Virus record (IMG/VR): IMGVR_UViG_3300050821_001630
Coordinates: 1 to 51,805 of that record
Origin: a virus
DNA: 51,805 nt
Direction: 5' to 3' (one strand)
Below are positions 2,559-47,134 of this stretch, one piece after another. The stretch's first letter is position 1. Each line of letters begins with the position of its first letter. The translations under genes were made by a program, and so were the position numbers. Below the pieces are notes generated by a model. That model worked only from the letters and a program-made list of their open reading frames with translations. It was not told the DNA's origin and did not search any database.

Positions 2559-3170
2559 TTAAGGTAATGAAAGATGATGGAGTGGGGCGGGGGCTTTTGG
2601 CAGAGTTGAAATTGGATTTATTAGATGCTTATAAACTCTTGCACATGCACGAACATCTGTTAAAGCATCATGAGCATCAATTAGTGGTTCATTGAAGAAG
2701 TAAGAGTAGCATTCTGATAATTTTGGCCATTTAGGACGACCATTCTTTTGGGTTAGATTCATTATTGGAGTTGTGGTCAACATTGTGCAAAATTCTGATT
2801 TAATGTAATTACCATTTCCTGCAACATTTAATCTGCTTAATTCACAATCAATCAAAAATTTATCGAACTTTAAGTTATGGCCAATTATAATATCACAACA
2901 TTTAAAGAAATGCAAATAAAGTTCTATTGCAAACTTTATTCTAACACCATACTTTTCTGCTCTTTCTTGAGAAACTCCATGAATAGCAGTCATCTCAGCA
3001 CTTATAATAAATCCCTCTGGCTTTATAAGTAATCCAACTTCATTCACTATCTCGTCTTTTTCGTCCAATATGAGCATCCCTAACTGCACAATATTAGGTT
3101 GTGAAGGATGATTAAGAGGCAAATCAAATCTCGCTAATCCCGTGGTTTCTGTGTCAAATACTAGTTTCAT
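2559..3170 (-). CDS. DnaQ-like 3'-5' exonuclease (DEDDh)
   Basis: Exonuclease of the RNase H fold that removes nucleotides from 3' ends. Exo I is FDTETTG with D6 and E8, Exo II is GHNLKFDKF with D103, and Exo III is HDALTD with H167 and D172, so all five DEDDh residues are present. At 203 residues it is a free-standing domain like the DNA polymerase III epsilon core. Its start overlaps the stop of a 42-residue gene (ATGA). Its position at the head of the packaging operon, far from the polymerase genes, is unusual; the polymerase has its own exonuclease domain, so this enzyme may act in end processing, recombination or RNA turnover. Confidence 0.88.
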   Translation of the reverse strand: MKLVFDTETTGLARFDLPLNHPSQPNIVQLGMLILDEKDEIVNEVGLLIKPEGFIISAEMTAIHGVSQERAEKYGVRIKFAIELYLHFFKCCDIIIGHNLKFDKFLIDCELSRLNVAGNGNYIKSEFCTMLTTTPIMNLTQKNGRPKWPKLSECYSYFFNEPLIDAHDALTDVRACARVYKHLINPISTLPKAPAPLHHLSLP

Positions 3171-3308: not shown

Positions 3309-3326
3309 TAGCAACTTCTATGCCAT
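3309..3326 (-). promoter_or_regulatory. Sigma-54-type -24/-12 promoter (leftward, packaging operon)
   Basis: On the minus strand the sequence is ATGGCATAGAAGTTGCTA. The invariant GG and GC are 12 bases apart, exactly as in the three strong sites of this genome, and TTGCT is perfect; TGGCAC is changed to TGGCAT. The predicted start is near 3299, four bases before the first gene of the packaging operon. It is weaker than the other sites. Confidence 0.45.
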
Positions 3327-7252: not shown

Positions 7253-7269
7253 TTGGCACGATTCTTGCT
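7253..7269 (+). promoter_or_regulatory. Sigma-54 promoter, consensus -24/-12
   Basis: TTGGCACGATTCTTGCT fits the sigma-54 consensus TGGCACG-N4-TTGCW at every position. GG at 7255-7256 and GC at 7267-7268. The predicted start is near 7280, giving an 85-base leader to the 207-residue gene. The activator encoded at 12650 is the obvious partner. Confidence 0.85.
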
Positions 7270-7364: not shown

Positions 7365-7988
7365 ATGTCAACAGAAGCACATAGTCACATAGCTCCAACA
7401 GCTCCTAAACCAGTTCTCGTAACTCGTAATGGAGTAACCAAACAGCTTGAACAGCAAGTTTTTGGTAAGAAAAGTCCGCTCAATGGTCACAAGTTCTATG
7501 CCCCAGTTCTTCGTCTTGCAACAGCCGAAGATGATTTGAAATGGGCTGGACTTGATTGGGTTATCAATGCAGTCAACAAAACAGCTCGCCGTATTTTTGC
7601 AGACATTTATACCGAGATTGTTTCTCCTGAAGTTCCGACAGAGATTAGTAAGAAATTTAAAGCAGATGGTATCTTTCCAATGGATGTATTTATCCATGAA
7701 GCAGAAGAGTTTACTTCTGGCTATCAAAAGATGTCTGACATTGAGACTGATTTGGAAGAACTATATGACCAGATTAATGCCTGTATTGAGAATCCCAAGT
7801 TTGGTGAAACCACTGATAATACTGAAGATGGCCCCAAAACTGAGGCTGCTCAAGAGCTTGAGGATACAATGAAGAAACTCAATGCTCAAGTTCGACCATT
7901 GAAGGCAACATATGCCTTGATGAAAGATAAGTATGCAGCGCGAGTTGCTGCTCGTAAAGCGAAAGAGGTTACGGCTAAGGCGGCTTAA
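7365..7988 (+). CDS. 207-aa protein, single-gene sigma-54 unit
   Basis: No family recognised. Residues 1-30 are a flexible Ala/Pro/Thr tail, 35-110 a mixed globular part (QQVFGKKSPLNGHKFYAPV, then GLDWVINAVNKTARRIF), and 115-200 a long acidic-to-basic helical region that should form a coiled coil (MSDIETDLEELYDQINACIE), ending in Lys/Ala repeats (AARVAARKAKEVTAKAA). It has the best sigma-54 promoter of the genome in front and an intrinsic terminator behind, so it is built for strong separate expression. A nucleoid-associated, DNA-binding or scaffolding role would fit the composition, but this is a guess. Confidence 0.82.
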   Translation: MSTEAHSHIAPTAPKPVLVTRNGVTKQLEQQVFGKKSPLNGHKFYAPVLRLATAEDDLKWAGLDWVINAVNKTARRIFADIYTEIVSPEVPTEISKKFKADGIFPMDVFIHEAEEFTSGYQKMSDIETDLEELYDQINACIENPKFGETTDNTEDGPKTEAAQELEDTMKKLNAQVRPLKATYALMKDKYAARVAARKAKEVTAKAA

Positions 7989-8016
7989 GTAGTTGTAGTT
8001 TAGTGTAAACAACAAG

Positions 8017-8053
8017 TTCCCTATTTAACTGTATAGTTGGATAGGGAATTTTT
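8017..8053 (+). terminator. Intrinsic terminator after the 207-aa gene
   Basis: TTCCCTAT 8017-8024 pairs perfectly with ATAGGGAA 8041-8048 and is followed by TTTTTATTT. It closes the sigma-54 unit; the following small genes need readthrough or another promoter, which I do not see. Confidence 0.8.
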
Positions 8054-12552: not shown

Positions 12553-12653
12553 ATAGCATGACTTATACTGAATTATGTTTGTGGATATTAACTACTGAAG
12601 TATTTTATATCTGTTACATGCTGACATTAATTTATCTAAAGGAAAAGAAATGA
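12549..12653 (+). CDS. 34-aa membrane peptide coupled to the sigma-54 activator
   Basis: ATG 12549 to TGA 12651-12653; the ATGA overlaps the activator start at 12650. Mostly one hydrophobic segment (LCLWILTTEVFYICYMLTLI) ending YLKEKK. Because it is translated just ahead of the activator it could tether or modulate it at the membrane, as PspA-type partners do, but this is only a possibility from the coupling. Confidence 0.45.
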   Translation: MNSMTYTELCLWILTTEVFYICYMLTLIYLKEKK

Positions 12654-13570
12654 TATACGGACAAAAAGCACAACAACCAATCCCTGATACCCAACAAGAA
12701 TCTGCTTCTGTTATAGCAGAAAAGATTCGTAAGTTAAAAGCTCTAGTAGCCAACGATAATGAGGGTCAACTTACAGACTCTATAGTAAGATGGATTAACG
12801 ATAACAAGCTTCCGTTTACTTACGAGAAGTCGCTTAAGGAAGGTAAGTATGAACTCAAAAACATCCTCTCACGTGGAGAACAATTTCTACAACAGTTTAT
12901 AACAGTAGATGATGCCATGCTATCTATGAAGAAAGATGTTCGCAAGATGGCACAATCAAATCATGATGTTCTTATAACAGGTGAGACTGGAACTGGAAAA
13001 GAAATCATAGCACGCTCTATGATAGGCAATCGCGAGGGACAAATCCTAAGTATAAACTGTGCAGGACTTCCAGAAAATCTAATAGAAAGTGAACTCTTTG
13101 GCCATAGAAAAGGTTCATTTACTGGCGCAGAAAGTGATAAGAAAGGATTGTTTGTAGCTGCGCAAGACGGAATAGTATTTCTTGACGAGATAAATAGACT
13201 ACCTCTGCATTTACAGAGTAAGCTATTGCGTGCTCTACAAGATAAGAAAGTTAGACCTGTAGGTAGTAACAAAGAAGAGGATATTAACTGCAAGTTTGTT
13301 TGCGCTTCTAATCAGAATTTACTCAAGTTGTATGAGAATGGATTATTTCAAGGCGACCTCTATGCACGTATAAGTATGCTAGAGGTTGACTTATCACCAC
13401 TCAAAGAAAGAATGTGTGATGTAGTTCCAATAGCAGAAAGTATAGCTGGTGGAGCGAAGTTCTTGGAGAGATATAGAGATGATTTAACTTCTGGAAAGTT
13501 AGACTTACAATGGAATGTAAGAAGTATTCAACGACACATAACTCGGTATAATGTATTAGGGAGATTATAA
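12650..13570 (+). CDS. Sigma-54-dependent transcription activator (AAA+ core only)
   Basis: bEBP-type AAA+ ATPase that remodels sigma-54 RNA polymerase so that it can open promoters. Walker A is GETGTGKE (111-118); the sigma-54-contacting loop is GSFTGA (155-160), a Ser variant of GAFTGA, inside ESELFGHRKGSFTGAES; Walker B is VFLDE (176-180); sensor I region is CASNQ (218-222); the arginine-finger region is FQGDLYAR, with R240 kept and the usual first Arg replaced by Gln (Q234); sensor II is the NVRSIQR helix (289-295). The first 85 residues are a short helical domain, not a receiver or GAF domain. The protein ends at residue 306, just after sensor II, so the usual C-terminal Fis-type HTH is absent; it would act from solution. 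It lies in the early operon, 350 bases before a sigma-54 promoter. Confidence 0.93.
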   Translation: MIYGQKAQQPIPDTQQESASVIAEKIRKLKALVANDNEGQLTDSIVRWINDNKLPFTYEKSLKEGKYELKNILSRGEQFLQQFITVDDAMLSMKKDVRKMAQSNHDVLITGETGTGKEIIARSMIGNREGQILSINCAGLPENLIESELFGHRKGSFTGAESDKKGLFVAAQDGIVFLDEINRLPLHLQSKLLRALQDKKVRPVGSNKEEDINCKFVCASNQNLLKLYENGLFQGDLYARISMLEVDLSPLKERMCDVVPIAESIAGGAKFLERYRDDLTSGKLDLQWNVRSIQRHITRYNVLGRL

Positions 13571-13573
13571 AAT

Positions 13574-13888
13574 ATGAGTGAACCTGTGAATTATGACAAG
13601 CAAGAGTTAGAAGCAATGAGTCCAATGCAAGTATTGTGTATAGACAATAACACAACCTTTTATTGGGCAGATAATAACTTCAAAGTTCCCGGTGTATACT
13701 ATTGGGATGGAGTTGGAAACTGTCATGTGTTGAATGAAATAAAAGGACTACAGAAAGAGAATACGCGCATGGCACTTCTACTTAAACGTATTGAAGAAGA
13801 ATGTGATGGAGGTGATGGAACTATTGATGCAACTGCCTTAGAGAAGTTCCAGAATCGTATAAATGGAATATTGAAAGGCGAATGTTAG
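13574..13888 (+). CDS. 104-aa hypothetical protein downstream of the activator
   Basis: Not recognised. N-terminal part is beta-rich and aromatic (MQVLCIDNNTTFYWADNN; VPGVYYWDGVG), the C-terminal part a charged coiled-coil-like helix (LQKENTRMALLLKRIEEE). It starts three bases after the activator's stop, so it could be a regulator of it. A hairpin CCTATT/AATAGG (13897-13915) lies between its stop and the -24 box of the next promoter. Confidence 0.65.
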   Translation: MSEPVNYDKQELEAMSPMQVLCIDNNTTFYWADNNFKVPGVYYWDGVGNCHVLNEIKGLQKENTRMALLLKRIEEECDGGDGTIDATALEKFQNRINGILKGEC

Positions 13889-13926: not shown

Positions 13927-13943
13927 TTGGCACACTTCTTGCT
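13927..13943 (+). promoter_or_regulatory. Sigma-54 promoter of the RNA array and replication operon
   Basis: TTGGCACACTTCTTGCT: TGGCAC and TTGCT are perfect, GG (13929-13930) to GC (13941-13942) spacing is 12. The same 17 bases occur at the capsid promoter on the other strand (47118-47134). The predicted start is about 13954, one base before the first helix of RNA array C. Confidence 0.88.
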
Positions 13944-13954
13944 TACAATATCCT

Positions 13955-14089
13955 GTAGGCGAAAACACTGTTCTTTGAATTTAGTTGATAGTGATTTACT
14001 GGAAGGCTGAGACCTCTTATGTTGCGGATAAAGCAAACAAAGTCGCGCTTTCAGCAAAGCAATCAGGAGTCGACTCCAACAGAATCTAC
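13955..14089 (+). ncRNA. RNA array C, element 1
   Basis: GTAG 13955-13958 pairs with CTAC 14086-14089, and after an internal loop CTGTT 13968-13972 pairs with AACAG 14078-14082. Inside are GCTTT-CAGC-AAAGC (about 14047-14060) and GGAG-TCGA-CTCC (about 14066-14077). The first paired base is the second base of the predicted transcript. Between this and element 2 a further hairpin lies at about 14090-14116 (CTC-TAGC with GCTA-GAG). Confidence 0.42.
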
Positions 14090-14131
14090 TCTAGCGTTTC
14101 TATAGTTGCTACGAGTGTGTAATCTGTATTC

Positions 14132-14212
14132 ATGACTGATTGTATAGTTACTGATGGATTAACTATAACATCCATCTGATTCCCTGATTGGGTTTAAGAA
14201 CCTATCAGTCAT
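14132..14212 (+). ncRNA. RNA array C, element 2
   Basis: ATGACTGAT 14132-14140 is perfectly complementary to ATCAGTCAT 14204-14212. Inside, TATAGTTA/TAACTATA competes with GATGGAT/ATCCATC, followed by small hairpins CCC-TGATT-GGG and GGTT-TAAG-AACC that overlap each other. Length 81 bases. It is not a tRNA: the arms do not fit 7/5 geometry. Confidence 0.5.
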
Positions 14213-14213
14213 C

Positions 14214-14278
14214 TCTCCCGTGCGTGGAAAGTGATACTATTACAGTGTCCTTAGTCTCACGGCTAAGACGAGGGGAGA
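14214..14278 (+). ncRNA. RNA array C, element 3
   Basis: TCTCCC 14214-14219 pairs with GGGAGA 14273-14278, enclosing CTTAG-TCTCACGG-CTAAG. It starts one base after element 2, so the two closing helices could stack. This is the shortest (65 bases) and its closing helix is only 6 bp. Confidence 0.42.
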
Positions 14279-14286
14279 AAGATTTT

Positions 14287-14383
14287 GGTTGTGTAAATGT
14301 TGCATGAGTGGTTTAAATGGCCTAGCAATAGGTATGTGGCTAAGGCTGCATCATTGGTTCAAATCCAATACAAATACACAATC
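14287..14383 (+). ncRNA. RNA array C, element 4 (tRNA-like T-arm)
   Basis: GGTTGTGTA 14287-14295 pairs with TACACAATC 14375-14383 (nine pairs, one G-U). Near the 3' side ATTGG-TTCAAAT-CCAAT (14353-14369) is an exact tRNA T-arm, and GAGTGGTTTAAATGGC resembles a D-loop. However five unpaired bases separate the T-arm from the closing helix, no anticodon arm fits, and there is no CCA, so I call it a tRNA-like element rather than a tRNA. Confidence 0.5.
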
Positions 14384-14386
14384 AGT

Positions 14387-14535
14387 TGATACCGTAGTGT
14401 AGTGTTGAGCAATGTGGCAAACACGCTTTTGATTGATAGGTATGGCTTTAGAATCCCGCCTGGAGCGTAGGAATAAAGTGATAACACATCGCATCACAAA
14501 AGAAAGAGTGGTAAAATCCCACCCATACGGTATCA
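14387..14535 (+). ncRNA. RNA array C, element 5
   Basis: TGATACCGTA 14387-14396 pairs perfectly with TACGGTATCA 14526-14535 (10 bp). Next to the 3' strand lies GTGG-TAAAATC-CCAC (14508-14522), a seven-base-loop hairpin in the same position as the T-arm-like hairpin of element 4. At 149 bases it is the largest of the array. It starts three bases after element 4. Confidence 0.52.
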
Positions 14536-14541
14536 TTTAAT

Positions 14542-14621
14542 TTAGTCCAGTCGAATATGCAATGATGATTAGCTCTAGATTAAGCAACTGTGGCACAATC
14601 AAAATTGTGTGGCTGGACTAA
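14542..14621 (+). ncRNA. RNA array C, element 6
   Basis: TTAGTCCAG 14542-14550 pairs perfectly with CTGGACTAA 14613-14621. CACAAT-CAAA-ATTGTG (14594-14609) is the 3' hairpin, again in the T-arm position. A central loop CTCTAGA could mimic an amber-suppressor anticodon, but its stem is poor and there is no D-arm. It ends 21 bases before the start codon of the 210-residue gene, so it may also shape translation. Confidence 0.5.
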
Positions 14622-14642
14622 TAACGATTTACAATTAATATA

Positions 14643-21102: not shown

Positions 21103-21303
21103 ATGGAAGAATTACAAGATTTACAGTGTTCAAGATGTCATGTTATGACAGAACAATACTGGAAGTATGAATCAAAAAGAGAAATATGTGTAGTGTGTAA
21201 TGATTGTTTGTTAGCTCTAGTTCAATACATGATTTCAAATGGAACTATCGCACCCCACAAAATAGTTGATTGGGCTTTAAGAACAAATGATACTTCGCCT
21301 TAA
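21103..21303 (+). CDS. 66-aa zinc-ribbon protein
   Basis: CSRC near residue 9 and CVVCNDC near residue 29 give a four- or five-Cys zinc site; the C-terminal half is helical. It overlaps the polymerase gene by 17 bases. Function unknown, perhaps a DNA-binding accessory to the polymerase. Confidence 0.6.
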   Translation: MEELQDLQCSRCHVMTEQYWKYESKREICVVCNDCLLALVQYMISNGTIAPHKIVDWALRTNDTSP

Positions 21304-22948
21304 ACCCACACTCAAGTATAATGGCCTAACAATTATACTATCAAATCCCTCTCGCTTTGACCACTCAAACGAGCGATTCCCTGATAGCGGCAGAGATATA
21401 CTTCTGAGTGCAAACGGAGGTCAAATGTTCAATGACTTCTGCCTGCGCCCAGAGTATAATATAATGCAGTGCGATATTCGTTTAGCAGATGATGAACAAG
21501 AGCCTCTGTTAGAAGGAACAAAATGTCTATTAACTCTAGGCGAATATGCAATGCACAAAGTCTGCCCTTACACAGTAAATAACACTCTCAACGAAATGAG
21601 AGGCAGTCCATTAACATCCAAGTATAACATTCCAACAATAGCATCTTTCTTTCCACAAGATGCAGTAGATTTTAAAGCACATGAACAAAGACTTAATACA
21701 GAATCAAAAGAGTATGTTGAAGATGGTTCAGAAGATAGTGAAGATGAGGACGAAGGAGATGGTAAAACTTTCTCTCGAACTAAAAGAGCCAATTACGCGT
21801 TCTGGCTTAGACGCGATTTGTGGAAGTGCAAACAGGTGCTCAAGGGAGATATTCAGAATAGGGTGGGACAACAACCTACCTATAGACTCTATCCCGGCGC
21901 AAATGAAGTTATTAACATCCTCTCCAAAACAAAAGGACAATTCCTCTACTTCGACATAGAGACAGATTATGAAGAACAAAATCTACTTTGCTTTGCGTTT
22001 AGTTTTGATGGTAATACTGTATATAGTGTGCCTGTTCTTGACTATAACTATCATCCAGCTCATTCTTCAATGGCTTTTATTCTCAGAGCCCTTTCCATTG
22101 CGTTTAGGGATAACACAGTAGTAGCACATAATGGTGCGGCTTTTGACTTCTTTGTATTGGCCTCTAAATATCATATTCCAGTATACAAATGTTATGATAC
22201 AATGCTTGCAATGCACCGTTGTTTTCCGGATGTGGAGAAGTCTTTAGGGCATTGTGTTTCATACTGGACATGGGAAAAGTTCCACAAAGATAGTGATAGT
22301 CGAGCCTATAGAACCAAAGAGCACATGATGGATAAGCTACTCTACTGTGCCAAAGATGTTTACACAATGTTTCTTGTTAAGGAGAAGATAGATGAATATG
22401 CCAAAACAATACCGGGCTTACAGCAATCAATTATTTGCGCGAATGATTCTATTCGACCTTACCTTATTACCACACTCCAAGGTATCAAGTATGACGAAGC
22501 GAAAGTCGAAGAAAAGAAAAAAGAAAACGACCGTTTGATGATGCAGTATATACGTATCATTCGTCTACTAATGGGTGAGTCTGTACATCTACAATGTCGT
22601 GCTTCAGTGAAGGGCAAAGCCAAAGCATTCCCCGGCTCTAATACTCAATGCTGTAATTACTTCCATACTCAACTAGAGTATCCAGTTTTGTTTCGTTCTA
22701 CCAAAACTCAGAAGCCTTCTCTTGGCAAGAAGATTATGTTTAGACTTGCTCTAAAATATCCTGATAATCCAGTGATAACTTTTACACTGTTGTATAGGCA
22801 GATAGCGAAAGAATACGGTGCTTTGAAATTCAATCCTTGGAAAGATAACAATAATGAAATTACTAAAGAACCAACCATTAGCCCCGAAGAAAAGATTCTA
22901 CAGTCTGGACAATCTCTCCTCAGAAGTGTGCAGGCTTTCATTGATTAA
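21287..22948 (+). CDS. DNA polymerase A, exonuclease and thumb part (split gene), UDG-like N-terminus
   Basis: N-terminal half of a split family A DNA polymerase. Residues 1-130 look like a uracil-DNA-glycosylase-superfamily fold (GRDILLSANGGQMFNDFCL, CLLTLGEYAMH, then RGSP and TIASFFPQDA, where the family has RG...tyHP). An acidic linker (DGSEDSEDEDEGDG) follows. The 3'-5' exonuclease has FDIETD (D223, E225), AHNGAAFDFF (D287) and AKDVYTMFLV (D357). The last 130 residues are the thumb (SLGKKIMFRLALKYPDNP, LLYRQIAKEYG). It ends before the palm, which is in the gene at 23084. The UDG assignment is weaker than the exonuclease. Confidence 0.85.
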   Translation: MILRLKPTLKYNGLTIILSNPSRFDHSNERFPDSGRDILLSANGGQMFNDFCLRPEYNIMQCDIRLADDEQEPLLEGTKCLLTLGEYAMHKVCPYTVNNTLNEMRGSPLTSKYNIPTIASFFPQDAVDFKAHEQRLNTESKEYVEDGSEDSEDEDEGDGKTFSRTKRANYAFWLRRDLWKCKQVLKGDIQNRVGQQPTYRLYPGANEVINILSKTKGQFLYFDIETDYEEQNLLCFAFSFDGNTVYSVPVLDYNYHPAHSSMAFILRALSIAFRDNTVVAHNGAAFDFFVLASKYHIPVYKCYDTMLAMHRCFPDVEKSLGHCVSYWTWEKFHKDSDSRAYRTKEHMMDKLLYCAKDVYTMFLVKEKIDEYAKTIPGLQQSIICANDSIRPYLITTLQGIKYDEAKVEEKKKENDRLMMQYIRIIRLLMGESVHLQCRASVKGKAKAFPGSNTQCCNYFHTQLEYPVLFRSTKTQKPSLGKKIMFRLALKYPDNPVITFTLLYRQIAKEYGALKFNPWKDNNNEITKEPTISPEEKILQSGQSLLRSVQAFID

Positions 22949-23087
22949 TAAAGATAGTGGTATTGGAGATTGTATTGAGATTGAGACTAATCCAGTTGGT
23001 ATATATCAACCTCTCTATAGTAGGGGTGTAAGTATTTTTATTAGGCAAGTTGGAGAAAATCTATGGCGAATATGGAGGATTAAGTGA
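22941..23087 (+). CDS. 48-aa protein between the two polymerase genes, TTG start
   Basis: Frame from TTG 22941 (overlapping the upstream stop by eight bases) to TGA 23085-23087, which shares GTGA with the palm gene. Sequence includes GIGDCIEIETNPVGIYQPLY and ends WRIWRIK. It does not resemble polymerase sequence and could be an inserted small gene, or a peptide linking the two subunits. The overlaps imply that it is translated. Confidence 0.5.
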   Translation: MINKDSGIGDCIEIETNPVGIYQPLYSRGVSIFIRQVGENLWRIWRIK

Positions 23088-24196
23088 GAAACTCAACCAC
23101 ATATAAGTTGGGTGGCCCAAAGACATTCCGCCGCGCCTCTACAAAAATACTTGGGAAGTGGGGCAGTAATCTTCAAAACATTGAGAAGTCAATGCGCGAG
23201 ATTTATATCTCAGATGGCTATACCAATAGCGTAAAAGACAAATGCAAATACTGGTTACAGACAGGCGACACTTCTGTATTCACAGAAGAAGAATTAAATA
23301 CTATAAGAGTCTTTGTTCAAGTAGACCAATCAGGTGCAGAGGCACTTATAGTAGCTTACGATTGCATTGCTGGCGACTATCGTAAACTTTTCATTCATGG
23401 TATAAAGCCACACGTTTATGTAGGTCTAAAGCTATTTGCTGATAAGTGGTATCAAGAAGCAATTGATGCACGACTAACAATTACAGAAGATGACATACTT
23501 CGTCTCTCTATGACTAAGATAGAAGACTTGAAAAAGAATCCTGCTTGGACTGATACTAAGAATCTTATTGCATCTAGTGATAATTGGCCATCCTCACGTA
23601 GGTATTATTACCATGCAAAACAAACATGTCATAGTGCAAACTATGGTATTGAAGCTAGTACTTTCATCATGAATATTTTAGAGAAATCAGCAGGCAAAGT
23701 TGTATTGTCCCGCGAACAGGGTGAGTATTTTCTTAACACATACCGTGCACTATTCCCTGAGATTGTAGAGCGTTGTCAGAGAATAGAGGAACAAGCTAAG
23801 AAGTATAGAATGCTTTACAACATGTTTGGATTTCCTTATACTATAACTTCCTATGAAGTAACTAAGAATATATATAAGGAACTTTACGCATGGGGAGCGC
23901 AATCGACAGTTGCAGAAATCACTCGTATAGCGTATAGTAGGATGCAGGAATTTATTGAAGCAGAGAAGAAAAAATGGGATATTCTAGCCGATACTCACGA
24001 TAGTTATTTACTGCAATGTCCCTTATTAGACGTGAAAGAATGCTCCACTAAAGCGAAAGAATTTATGAATCAACGACTAGTCTCACCCATAGATAACACA
24101 GAATTTAATATGAAATCAGAATGCAATATAGGCTTTAATTGGAGTCCTTTTAAGAAAGAAGTTAATGAAGTAGGATTGCAAGAAATACAATGGTAA
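23084..24196 (+). CDS. DNA polymerase A, palm and fingers part (split gene)
   Basis: C-terminal catalytic half of the split polymerase, 370 residues from GTG 23084. It begins with the T-x-R-x-S...NLQNI region (RRASTK, SNLQNI). Motif A is VDQSGAEAL with D81 and E86, where DYSQIELR is usual; motif B is K179-x7-Y187-G; motif C is DTHDSYL with H305-D306 followed by Ser where most enzymes have Glu. The two catalytic aspartates are present, so the enzyme should be active once joined with the exonuclease/thumb chain. No intron or intein borders are visible at the split. Confidence 0.88.
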   Translation: MRNSTTYKLGGPKTFRRASTKILGKWGSNLQNIEKSMREIYISDGYTNSVKDKCKYWLQTGDTSVFTEEELNTIRVFVQVDQSGAEALIVAYDCIAGDYRKLFIHGIKPHVYVGLKLFADKWYQEAIDARLTITEDDILRLSMTKIEDLKKNPAWTDTKNLIASSDNWPSSRRYYYHAKQTCHSANYGIEASTFIMNILEKSAGKVVLSREQGEYFLNTYRALFPEIVERCQRIEEQAKKYRMLYNMFGFPYTITSYEVTKNIYKELYAWGAQSTVAEITRIAYSRMQEFIEAEKKKWDILADTHDSYLLQCPLLDVKECSTKAKEFMNQRLVSPIDNTEFNMKSECNIGFNWSPFKKEVNEVGLQEIQW

Positions 24197-45593: not shown

Positions 45594-46907
45594 TTAAGAG
45601 GTTTTGATTGCAGGACGTTGGCGAAGAACAATGATTGGCATTGCATAACGACGTTCACCAACCAAATAACCATGAGTCAACTGGGAGAGGAATTTGAGAT
45701 TCTCACCATAGTTGTTAAGACTAATACTACCATCAGGATTAGTAATAAGAATCTGGTCAGTTAAACGAACTTCACCATTCCAGCGAAGTTTATAGAACTT
45801 CTCAGCACTCATGTTCATTGTTGCGAACTCTTTAGGTGGAGGGCCAACCTTAATGGTCTTGGCATAACTATCTCCAAGAATCCAGTTGATTTCATAGGGA
45901 GCAGTAATCAGAGAAGTATAATAAGGATTTGGTTTCCACTTATTATCGGTATTATCAAATACTTCAGGAGCAATTGGAGTTCCGGCAGACCACATAACAT
46001 TCGCTCCACCATCTAGAATATTCACTGTAGAAAAGCGAATAGGATAAGGATGAATCTTAACTGTTGCTGTTCCAAATAGACTACCCTTAAAGTCATTGAA
46101 AAGCAAATCTAGATTTAAAGGCTTAAGGGTTTGAACATCAGGGTCATAAGTCCAATTCATGAATCCCTCAGAAGATGTTACAATAACATACTTATCTTTA
46201 ACACCTTCATTATCCTTGGGCATATTAACAACACCTTTGAATGGCGGAGCCTTAAAATCTTCACTCAAAGCCATAATCACGCGATAAGCATCACGCAAAC
46301 GAAAATTCTGTCCAACACCCGGAATACCACCTGTTCCATTAACTGTAGCAATAAGCCAGTTAGCAGTCTTAGAATTAGCAGCAGTTCCAGCAGCATTACC
46401 CATTTGAATTGGGCAACCAGTAATAACTCCTACTCCACAGAGATATACATTAGTGGCATTAAACCACATGTTAGTTTCAATGAATTGCTCATTGGAAATA
46501 ACAATCTTCTCAACAATATCCTTGTTTGCAAACTGCAAATAGGTTTCCCAAAACGCAGTAAATGAAGGCATGAAATTGAATTCAAACGATTCATATTGAT
46601 GTTTGAATACAACCGCCGTCTCAACACTCTCAGTAACTTGAAAAACATCCTTATTGCTGACAGTAGTGATTGGATTAGGGAAGAAGAACGAACGTCCGAC
46701 AGGTGAACGCTGAGGGGTAACACCCTTCATTACGTTGCCTTGATTTGTTTGCCAATCAATCTTGCCATAGAGTTGGTTAAACAAGTTCCATCGTGGATAT
46801 TGTTGAACCTCATTCTTGACTAGATAGAAAGGAAGCTGATTGAACCTATTAATATCTTCAACAACACCTGTGCCAAAGATACTAGGTTGGTCATAATATG
46901 CGGGCAT
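45594..46907 (-). CDS. Major capsid protein, 437 aa
   Basis: Follows the scaffold gene and has the size and pattern of a podoviral major capsid protein: N-terminal arm (DINRFNQLPFYLVKNEVQQY), a long mixed domain with Pro/Gly-rich loops (NPITTVSNKDVFQVTESVE), and a C-terminal beta-rich part (ISLNNYGENLKFLSQLTHGY). HK97 fold is inferred. The start is ATG 46907 in the AT-rich context AAATATATG, with no Shine-Dalgarno sequence. It is under the strong leftward sigma-54 promoter with a 200-base structured leader. Confidence 0.87.
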   Translation of the reverse strand: MPAYYDQPSIFGTGVVEDINRFNQLPFYLVKNEVQQYPRWNLFNQLYGKIDWQTNQGNVMKGVTPQRSPVGRSFFFPNPITTVSNKDVFQVTESVETAVVFKHQYESFEFNFMPSFTAFWETYLQFANKDIVEKIVISNEQFIETNMWFNATNVYLCGVGVITGCPIQMGNAAGTAANSKTANWLIATVNGTGGIPGVGQNFRLRDAYRVIMALSEDFKAPPFKGVVNMPKDNEGVKDKYVIVTSSEGFMNWTYDPDVQTLKPLNLDLLFNDFKGSLFGTATVKIHPYPIRFSTVNILDGGANVMWSAGTPIAPEVFDNTDNKWKPNPYYTSLITAPYEINWILGDSYAKTIKVGPPPKEFATMNMSAEKFYKLRWNGEVRLTDQILITNPDGSISLNNYGENLKFLSQLTHGYLVGERRYAMPIIVLRQRPAIKTS

Positions 46908-47117: not shown

Positions 47118-47134
47118 AGCAAGAAGTGTGCCAA
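47118..47134 (-). promoter_or_regulatory. Sigma-54 promoter of the capsid gene
   Basis: The minus strand reads TTGGCACACTTCTTGCT, the same 17 bases as the promoter at 13927. It lies in the 231-base gap between scaffold and capsid, five bases from the scaffold stop. Predicted start about 47108. Confidence 0.88.

Follow-up and report, generated by a model that had tools for sequence, protein, structure and literature searches.

Introduction

Phages redirect the host polymerase through their own sigma factors, anti-sigma proteins and polymerases. With T4 gp55, the sigma factors of phiEco32 and 7-11, and the N4 polymerases, a phage product made early shifts transcription to promoters that serve later.

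A sigma-54 activator, for its part, does not need to bind DNA in order to act. The engineered, AAA+-only protein DctD250 activates sigma-54 promoters in Salmonella without enhancers or a DNA-binding domain (PMC3844500), and FlgR of H. pylori is a natural sigma-54 activator that lacks a DNA-binding domain and activates while unbound to DNA (PMC3930126). CtcC-type activators likewise lack such a domain. Among phages, a sigma-54 type regulator has been found in the genome of the Bdellovibrio phage phi1422, where it was reported as a co-opted cellular regulator (PMC3391216). Sigma-54 activators, activators without a helix-turn-helix (HTH), and phage factors that redirect the polymerase are all, then, already known.

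Here we analyse one whole IMG/VR virus record of 51,805 bases, which we call the window, and which encodes a sigma-54 activator of its own. Like PspF 1-275 and DctD250, this protein has an AAA+ core with the GAFTGA loop and no receiver. PspF naturally keeps its HTH, however, and DctD250 is a laboratory truncation, whereas the HTH-less form of the phage protein is natural, viral and linked to phage promoters. FlgR resembles the phage protein in being natural and without a DNA-binding domain, and the usual Fis-type HTH is, on this precedent, not essential; but FlgR has a receiver, which is absent from the phage protein, and some relatives of the latter consist of the AAA+ domain alone. As for phi1422, the passages that bear on its regulator describe neither promoters nor a missing HTH, and the regulator was not retrieved in a protein search with the window activator. 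Finally, whereas T4, phiEco32, 7-11 and N4 encode a sigma factor or a polymerase, the lineage of the window apparently uses the host's sigma-54 and supplies only the ATPase that activates it.

Results

The activator and its domains

The activator gene and the parts of its product are as follows.

12650..13570, + strand: sigma-54 activator gene (bacterial enhancer-binding protein type), 306 aa, ATG start
12650..12889, + strand: N-terminal domain, residues 1-80, predicted alpha/beta, with two helices and a beta hairpin
12980..13003, + strand: Walker A, GETGTGKE, residues 111-118, invariant in 27 aligned phage homologues
13112..13129, + strand: sigma-54 contact loop, GSFTGA, residues 155-160; T158 invariant, G159 and A160 at least 90% conserved
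13175..13189, + strand: Walker B, VFLDE, residues 176-180, from the homologue alignment
13355..13369, + strand: DLYAR with the arginine-finger region, residues 236-240; D236, L237 and R240 invariant
13514..13525, + strand: sensor II region, NVRS, residues 289-292; N289 and R291 invariant

Residues 85-246 match Sigma54_activat (PF00158) with an E-value of 3.9e-56 and 189.8 bits. The 306-aa protein has no Pfam match to an HTH family or to a receiver. The AlphaFold (AF2) model has a mean pLDDT of 92.2. Its nearest solved structures in Foldseek are the AAA+ domains of sigma-54 activators, namely NtrC4 (3dzd), FleQ, FlrC, NtrC1, LuxO and PspF, and a sequence-profile search concurs in placing sigma-54 activators as the best matches. 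The residues of Walker A, Walker B and the arginine finger are invariant over the 27 homologues, divergent as these are. In a few members of the family the contact loop reads GAYTGS, GAFTDA or NSFTGA, a point against the mechanism proposed below. Residues 81-281 also match PHROG phrog_7998 (E 1.9e-39), a model of 339 positions with no assigned function.

A preliminary description, made from sequence alone, had claimed a complete sigma-54 AAA+ core (GETGTGKE, GSFTGA, VFLDE, DLYAR) that ends right after sensor II, with neither a receiver nor a Fis-type HTH. These claims held: all the motifs are present, the reading frame stops 14 residues past NVRS, and Pfam finds neither regulatory domain. The HMM search and the structure prediction that it had proposed as checks are those reported above, and a better match to an unrelated AAA+ family, which it had said would refute the assignment, was not found. 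We add one element that it did not describe, the predicted N-terminal domain of about 80 residues. Residues 1-80 have no Pfam match, including to receiver, GAF or PAS regulatory domains, and the domain is missing from the shortest relatives (241-247 aa). The architecture is thus an AAA+ core with a short N-terminal domain and no HTH. A detached HTH in the adjacent reading frame at 13574-13888 was considered and ruled out, as that frame has no Pfam match.

We conclude that the window protein belongs to the sigma-54 activator family and lacks a DNA-binding domain. Family, motifs and missing HTH are shown, while the fold rests on a model. That the protein is a hexameric ATPase which opens RpoN promoter complexes is consistent with fold and motifs, and is inferred without biochemistry.

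Candidate sigma-54 promoters in the window

The window contains four exact matches to TGGCAYN5TTGCW, each of them intergenic. Three have the TGGCACN5TTGCW form, and the fourth, at 3310(-), has TGGCAT. When up to one mismatch is allowed there are 9 matches, compared with a mean of 1.82 in shuffled sequence; the largest shuffled count was 5, and 0 of 100 shuffles reached 9. The sites, with the adjoining genes that concern us, are listed here.

7254..7269, + strand: putative -24/-12 promoter TGGCACGATTCTTGCT, exact match, ahead of the run of genes in which the activator lies
7365..7988, + strand: gene of unknown function, 207 aa, first gene past the 7254 promoter (cluster 21)
13928..13943, + strand: putative -24/-12 promoter TGGCACACTTCTTGCT, exact match, preceding the replication/middle gene block
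47118..47133, - strand: putative -24/-12 promoter TGGCACACTTCTTGCT, exact match, upstream of the major capsid gene
45594..46907, - strand: major capsid protein with an HK97/N4-like fold (AF2 model, Foldseek match to the phage N4 capsid 9e99, E 1.1e-10)
3310..3325, - strand: putative -24/-12 promoter TGGCATAGAAGTTGCT, exact match in the TGGCAT form

The preliminary description had placed promoters at 7253 and 13927, and both are borne out as exact plus-strand matches one position further on; it had missed the two minus-strand sites. All four fit the sigma-54 pattern TGGCAY-N5-TTGCW with its fixed spacing. Their transcription starts, expected about 12 nt downstream, and their dependence on RpoN are inferred, as we have no RNA data. 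Counts of sigma-70 promoters in the window equal those in shuffles, and hence cannot be interpreted. No RNA families or tRNAs were found.

A site of the 7254 type is kept upstream of the orthologue of gene 7365 in 11 of 14 genomes. Lying upstream of the activator's own gene run, it would make a positive loop possible, by inference; a terminator-like hairpin at 8014-8051, between this site and the activator, may restrict such a loop. The 13928 site lies 358 nt past the activator stop. A distance of 211 nt separates the capsid site, 47133(-), from the major capsid gene downstream of it, whose product is modelled with a pLDDT of 69. Downstream of the 3310(-) site are an exonuclease gene (2559-3170) and a conserved 135-aa gene adjoining the terminase, and sites precede the orthologue of the latter gene in 7 of 17 genomes.

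Two further features of the window may be recorded. Some 700 nt without a convincing gene or an Rfam match (13944-14642), possibly a leader, an RNA or an origin, separate the 13928 promoter from gene 14643. The equivalent gap varies widely among relatives, two of which (L002 and L003) have a reading frame of 112-115 aa there. In addition, DNA polymerase A is seemingly split (21287-24196) into a 553-aa protein with the 3'-5' exonuclease and a 370-aa protein with the polymerase domain, encoded by adjacent genes.

The activator across the lineage

A profile search of IMG/VR with the activator returned 80 loci, 30 of which have short activators, about 240-320 aa long where complete and mostly on contigs of 43-55 kb. 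According to Pfam, Sigma54_activat is present in 27/27 aligned phage homologues and an HTH in 0/27. The activators of L045, L054 and L056, at 241 aa, are essentially the AAA+ domain alone. In a phylogenetic tree, 42 phage sequences fall cleanly apart from 31 activators of other viral records, with a support of 0.78.

In order to avoid the bias of searching with the activator itself, we used the capsid protein as an independent query. This search gave 31 virus records that are 40 kb or longer, and each of the 31 has one activator of this family; the capsid-selected records without it are all fragments shorter than 34 kb. The short activator is therefore a lineage-wide trait, which occurs together with the capsid in every record tested that is complete enough (at least 40 kb).

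We found no relatives of the window capsid among named phages, and only distant ones of its polymerase. To judge from their annotations, most 'phage' matches of the activator resemble bacterial contigs deposited as phage records. In three records (G098, G100 and G102) there is one in-frame TAA within the matched activator stretch, possibly because the match extends too far upstream or because the stop is recoded. A human-faecal phage (L088, MT121960.1, 20001-20612) encodes a distant, short protein resembling a sigma-54 activator, in which Walker A is altered to GETGTDKE; the stretch of this phage that was read contains no strict -24/-12 site.

Conservation of the promoters

We asked how often the element recurs at capsid loci found by the capsid alone, a set of 80 made up of 78 viral loci and 2 from genome assemblies. 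In 69/80 of them the 350 nt before the capsid start contain a -24/-12 element with no more than one mismatched position, against 1/80 on the opposite strand and 0/80 in the gene interior. Another 3/80 have a site with two mismatches, and the other 8/80 have no canonical -24/-12 element and retain only GG-N10-GC. For five of these eight the activator locus is available, and all five have a site with one mismatch next to the gene for the activator.

A core set of 24 related genomes was read in pieces. The capsid gene is preceded by a site in all 20 genomes that could be scored; for the majority of the other conserved genes there is no such site. In 24/24 genomes the activator stop is followed on the same strand, 25-575 nt further 3', by a site (18 exact, 6 with one mismatch). 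Over the 1.13 Mb of these genomes there are 74 strict sites, compared with a mean of 1.64 and a maximum of 9 for 300 block-permuted patterns. The excess is specific to the spacer: a spacer of 5 yields the 74 sites, and other spacers yield 1-7. In the 30 phage records with a short activator we count 77 strict sites, versus 1 for the reversed pattern; in 34 viral records with other, mostly longer, activator proteins we count 9, versus 1.

The sigma factor and the host

No Sigma54_DBD was detected in the window or in two relatives, the three genomes tested for a phage sigma-54; sigma-70 families were not systematically covered. Therefore, host RpoN must serve. One relative's contig, which carries both the capsid gene and an activator of 253 aa, is binned in a Deltaproteobacteria MAG where RpoN is encoded. 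This is weak evidence for a possible host, and the host remains unknown. Another contig of the lineage (L145, JACTVG010000014.1) is binned in the MAG of a Methanoregulaceae archaeon, which we reject as a host, as no RpoN was found there and mis-binning is probable.

Discussion

Proposed mechanism

The evidence shown above comprises the family of the protein, its motifs and predicted fold, the absence of an HTH, the conserved positions of the promoters, and universal co-occurrence within the lineage. We consider it likely, with a probability of roughly 0.8, that the activator sets off host RpoN-polymerase at the phage's middle and late promoters. Against this stand the lack of transcription data and the capsid loci that have no canonical -24/-12 element. 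The preliminary description had linked the activator to phage sigma-54 promoters through host RpoN; that link is supported throughout the lineage, and activation itself is inferred.

Under this reading, the phage-encoded activator would be made ahead of the late genes, although this timing is inferred, and would assemble into an ATP-driven ring, an assembly and ATPase activity equally inferred. Its GSFTGA loops would then remodel host RpoN-RNA polymerase poised at the phage -24/-12 promoters, opening the late capsid operon and the block after the activator gene. The activator's own gene run might be opened as well, giving a feed-forward switch, but this autoregulatory loop is again an inference. 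By analogy with FlgR and with engineered AAA+-only activators, the closed complexes may be contacted from solution. Solution contact is the most probable mode because the activator has no HTH, and it is favoured further since DctD250 and FlgR show that an AAA+-only or otherwise DNA-binding-free activator suffices in principle.

Alternative explanations

The alternative that survives best, and which we regard as possible, is that the activator is delivered to the phage promoters by a DNA-bound partner, either a phage protein or a host factor, sitting at upstream motifs. In its favour, RGTATAAY half-sites cluster 14, 27, 39 and 49 nt upstream of the -24 element in several genomes and often form the palindrome ATTATACT-N5-AGTATAAT; RGTATAAY occurs at 2 of 10 held-out exact sites, versus 0.9% of background windows; and TAGAAGAT repeats lie upstream of sites in the group whose activators are the AAA+ core only. 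Against it, 9-mers shared upstream within genomes show no excess (58, compared with a null mean of 74; p 0.51), the RGTATAAY motif is missing from the capsid promoter of the window, none of the ten small window genes that were scanned matches a DNA-binding family, and the RGTATAAY motif was initially spotted by eye. A universal upstream activating sequence is rejected, given the lack of 9-mer excess, and what remains are leads in subgroups. Examples of the palindrome are L009:4962-4982 and L009:10874-10894, with half-sites at roughly helical spacing. The TAGAAGAT repeats are found upstream of sigma-54 sites in L024, L026, L027, L028 and L067, where the activator is little or nothing more than the AAA+ domain.

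A DNA-bound partner thus stays possible in some members. The preliminary description had the protein activating from solution at every competent promoter, which is an inference only, as the upstream motifs of some subgroups leave room for a partner. The choice between pure solution action and a bound partner is unresolved; by inference, we favour solution.

It is less probable, and in our view unlikely, that the activator chiefly switches host RpoN genes, as a host takeover or stress response, with the phage promoters secondary. One would indeed expect an activator without an HTH to act at the host's sigma-54 promoters also, as DctD250 does (PMC3844500). Yet the phage capsid promoter is kept at 69/80 loci, and the activator-adjacent site in 24/24 genomes.

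Least credible of all, to the point of being very unlikely, is that host activators, responsive to the physiology of the host, read the phage promoters and the AAA+ protein serves some unrelated function such as replication initiation or packaging: AAA+ proteins do fill many phage functions, and this gene is situated among replication genes, but the sigma-54-specific GAFTGA loop is kept, the best matches are sigma-54 activators, and the protein is found together with the promoters across the lineage.

Novelty and significance

The preliminary description had also held that few phages are known to carry such a gene, and that the novelty of its combination with matching promoters needed a literature search. 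In the open-licence literature that we searched, we found no phage lineage described as using an HTH-less activator for its central switch together with late promoters that match it. As the search was confined to open-licence papers, the judgement of novelty is a partial one. A bolder reading, towards which we lean by a narrow margin, is that host sigma-54 carries the late programme of a widespread podovirus-like lineage, as yet uncultured. The dedicated switch would be a natural, HTH-less AAA+ activator, reduced in some members to a single domain, which works from solution and boosts the operon that encodes it, and the strategy would be one not described before.

If our preferred reading, in which the phage activator drives host RpoN-polymerase, is true, then natural minimal activators, some of only about 241 aa and AAA+ only, would be available as tools, and sigma-54 regulons could be triggered at will. 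For the phages themselves, late transcription that relies on the host's ATP-driven sigma-54 system would constitute an additional strategy for redirecting the host polymerase. Lytic development would be tied to hosts that bear RpoN, and a host without rpoN should block the infection or bring it to a halt.
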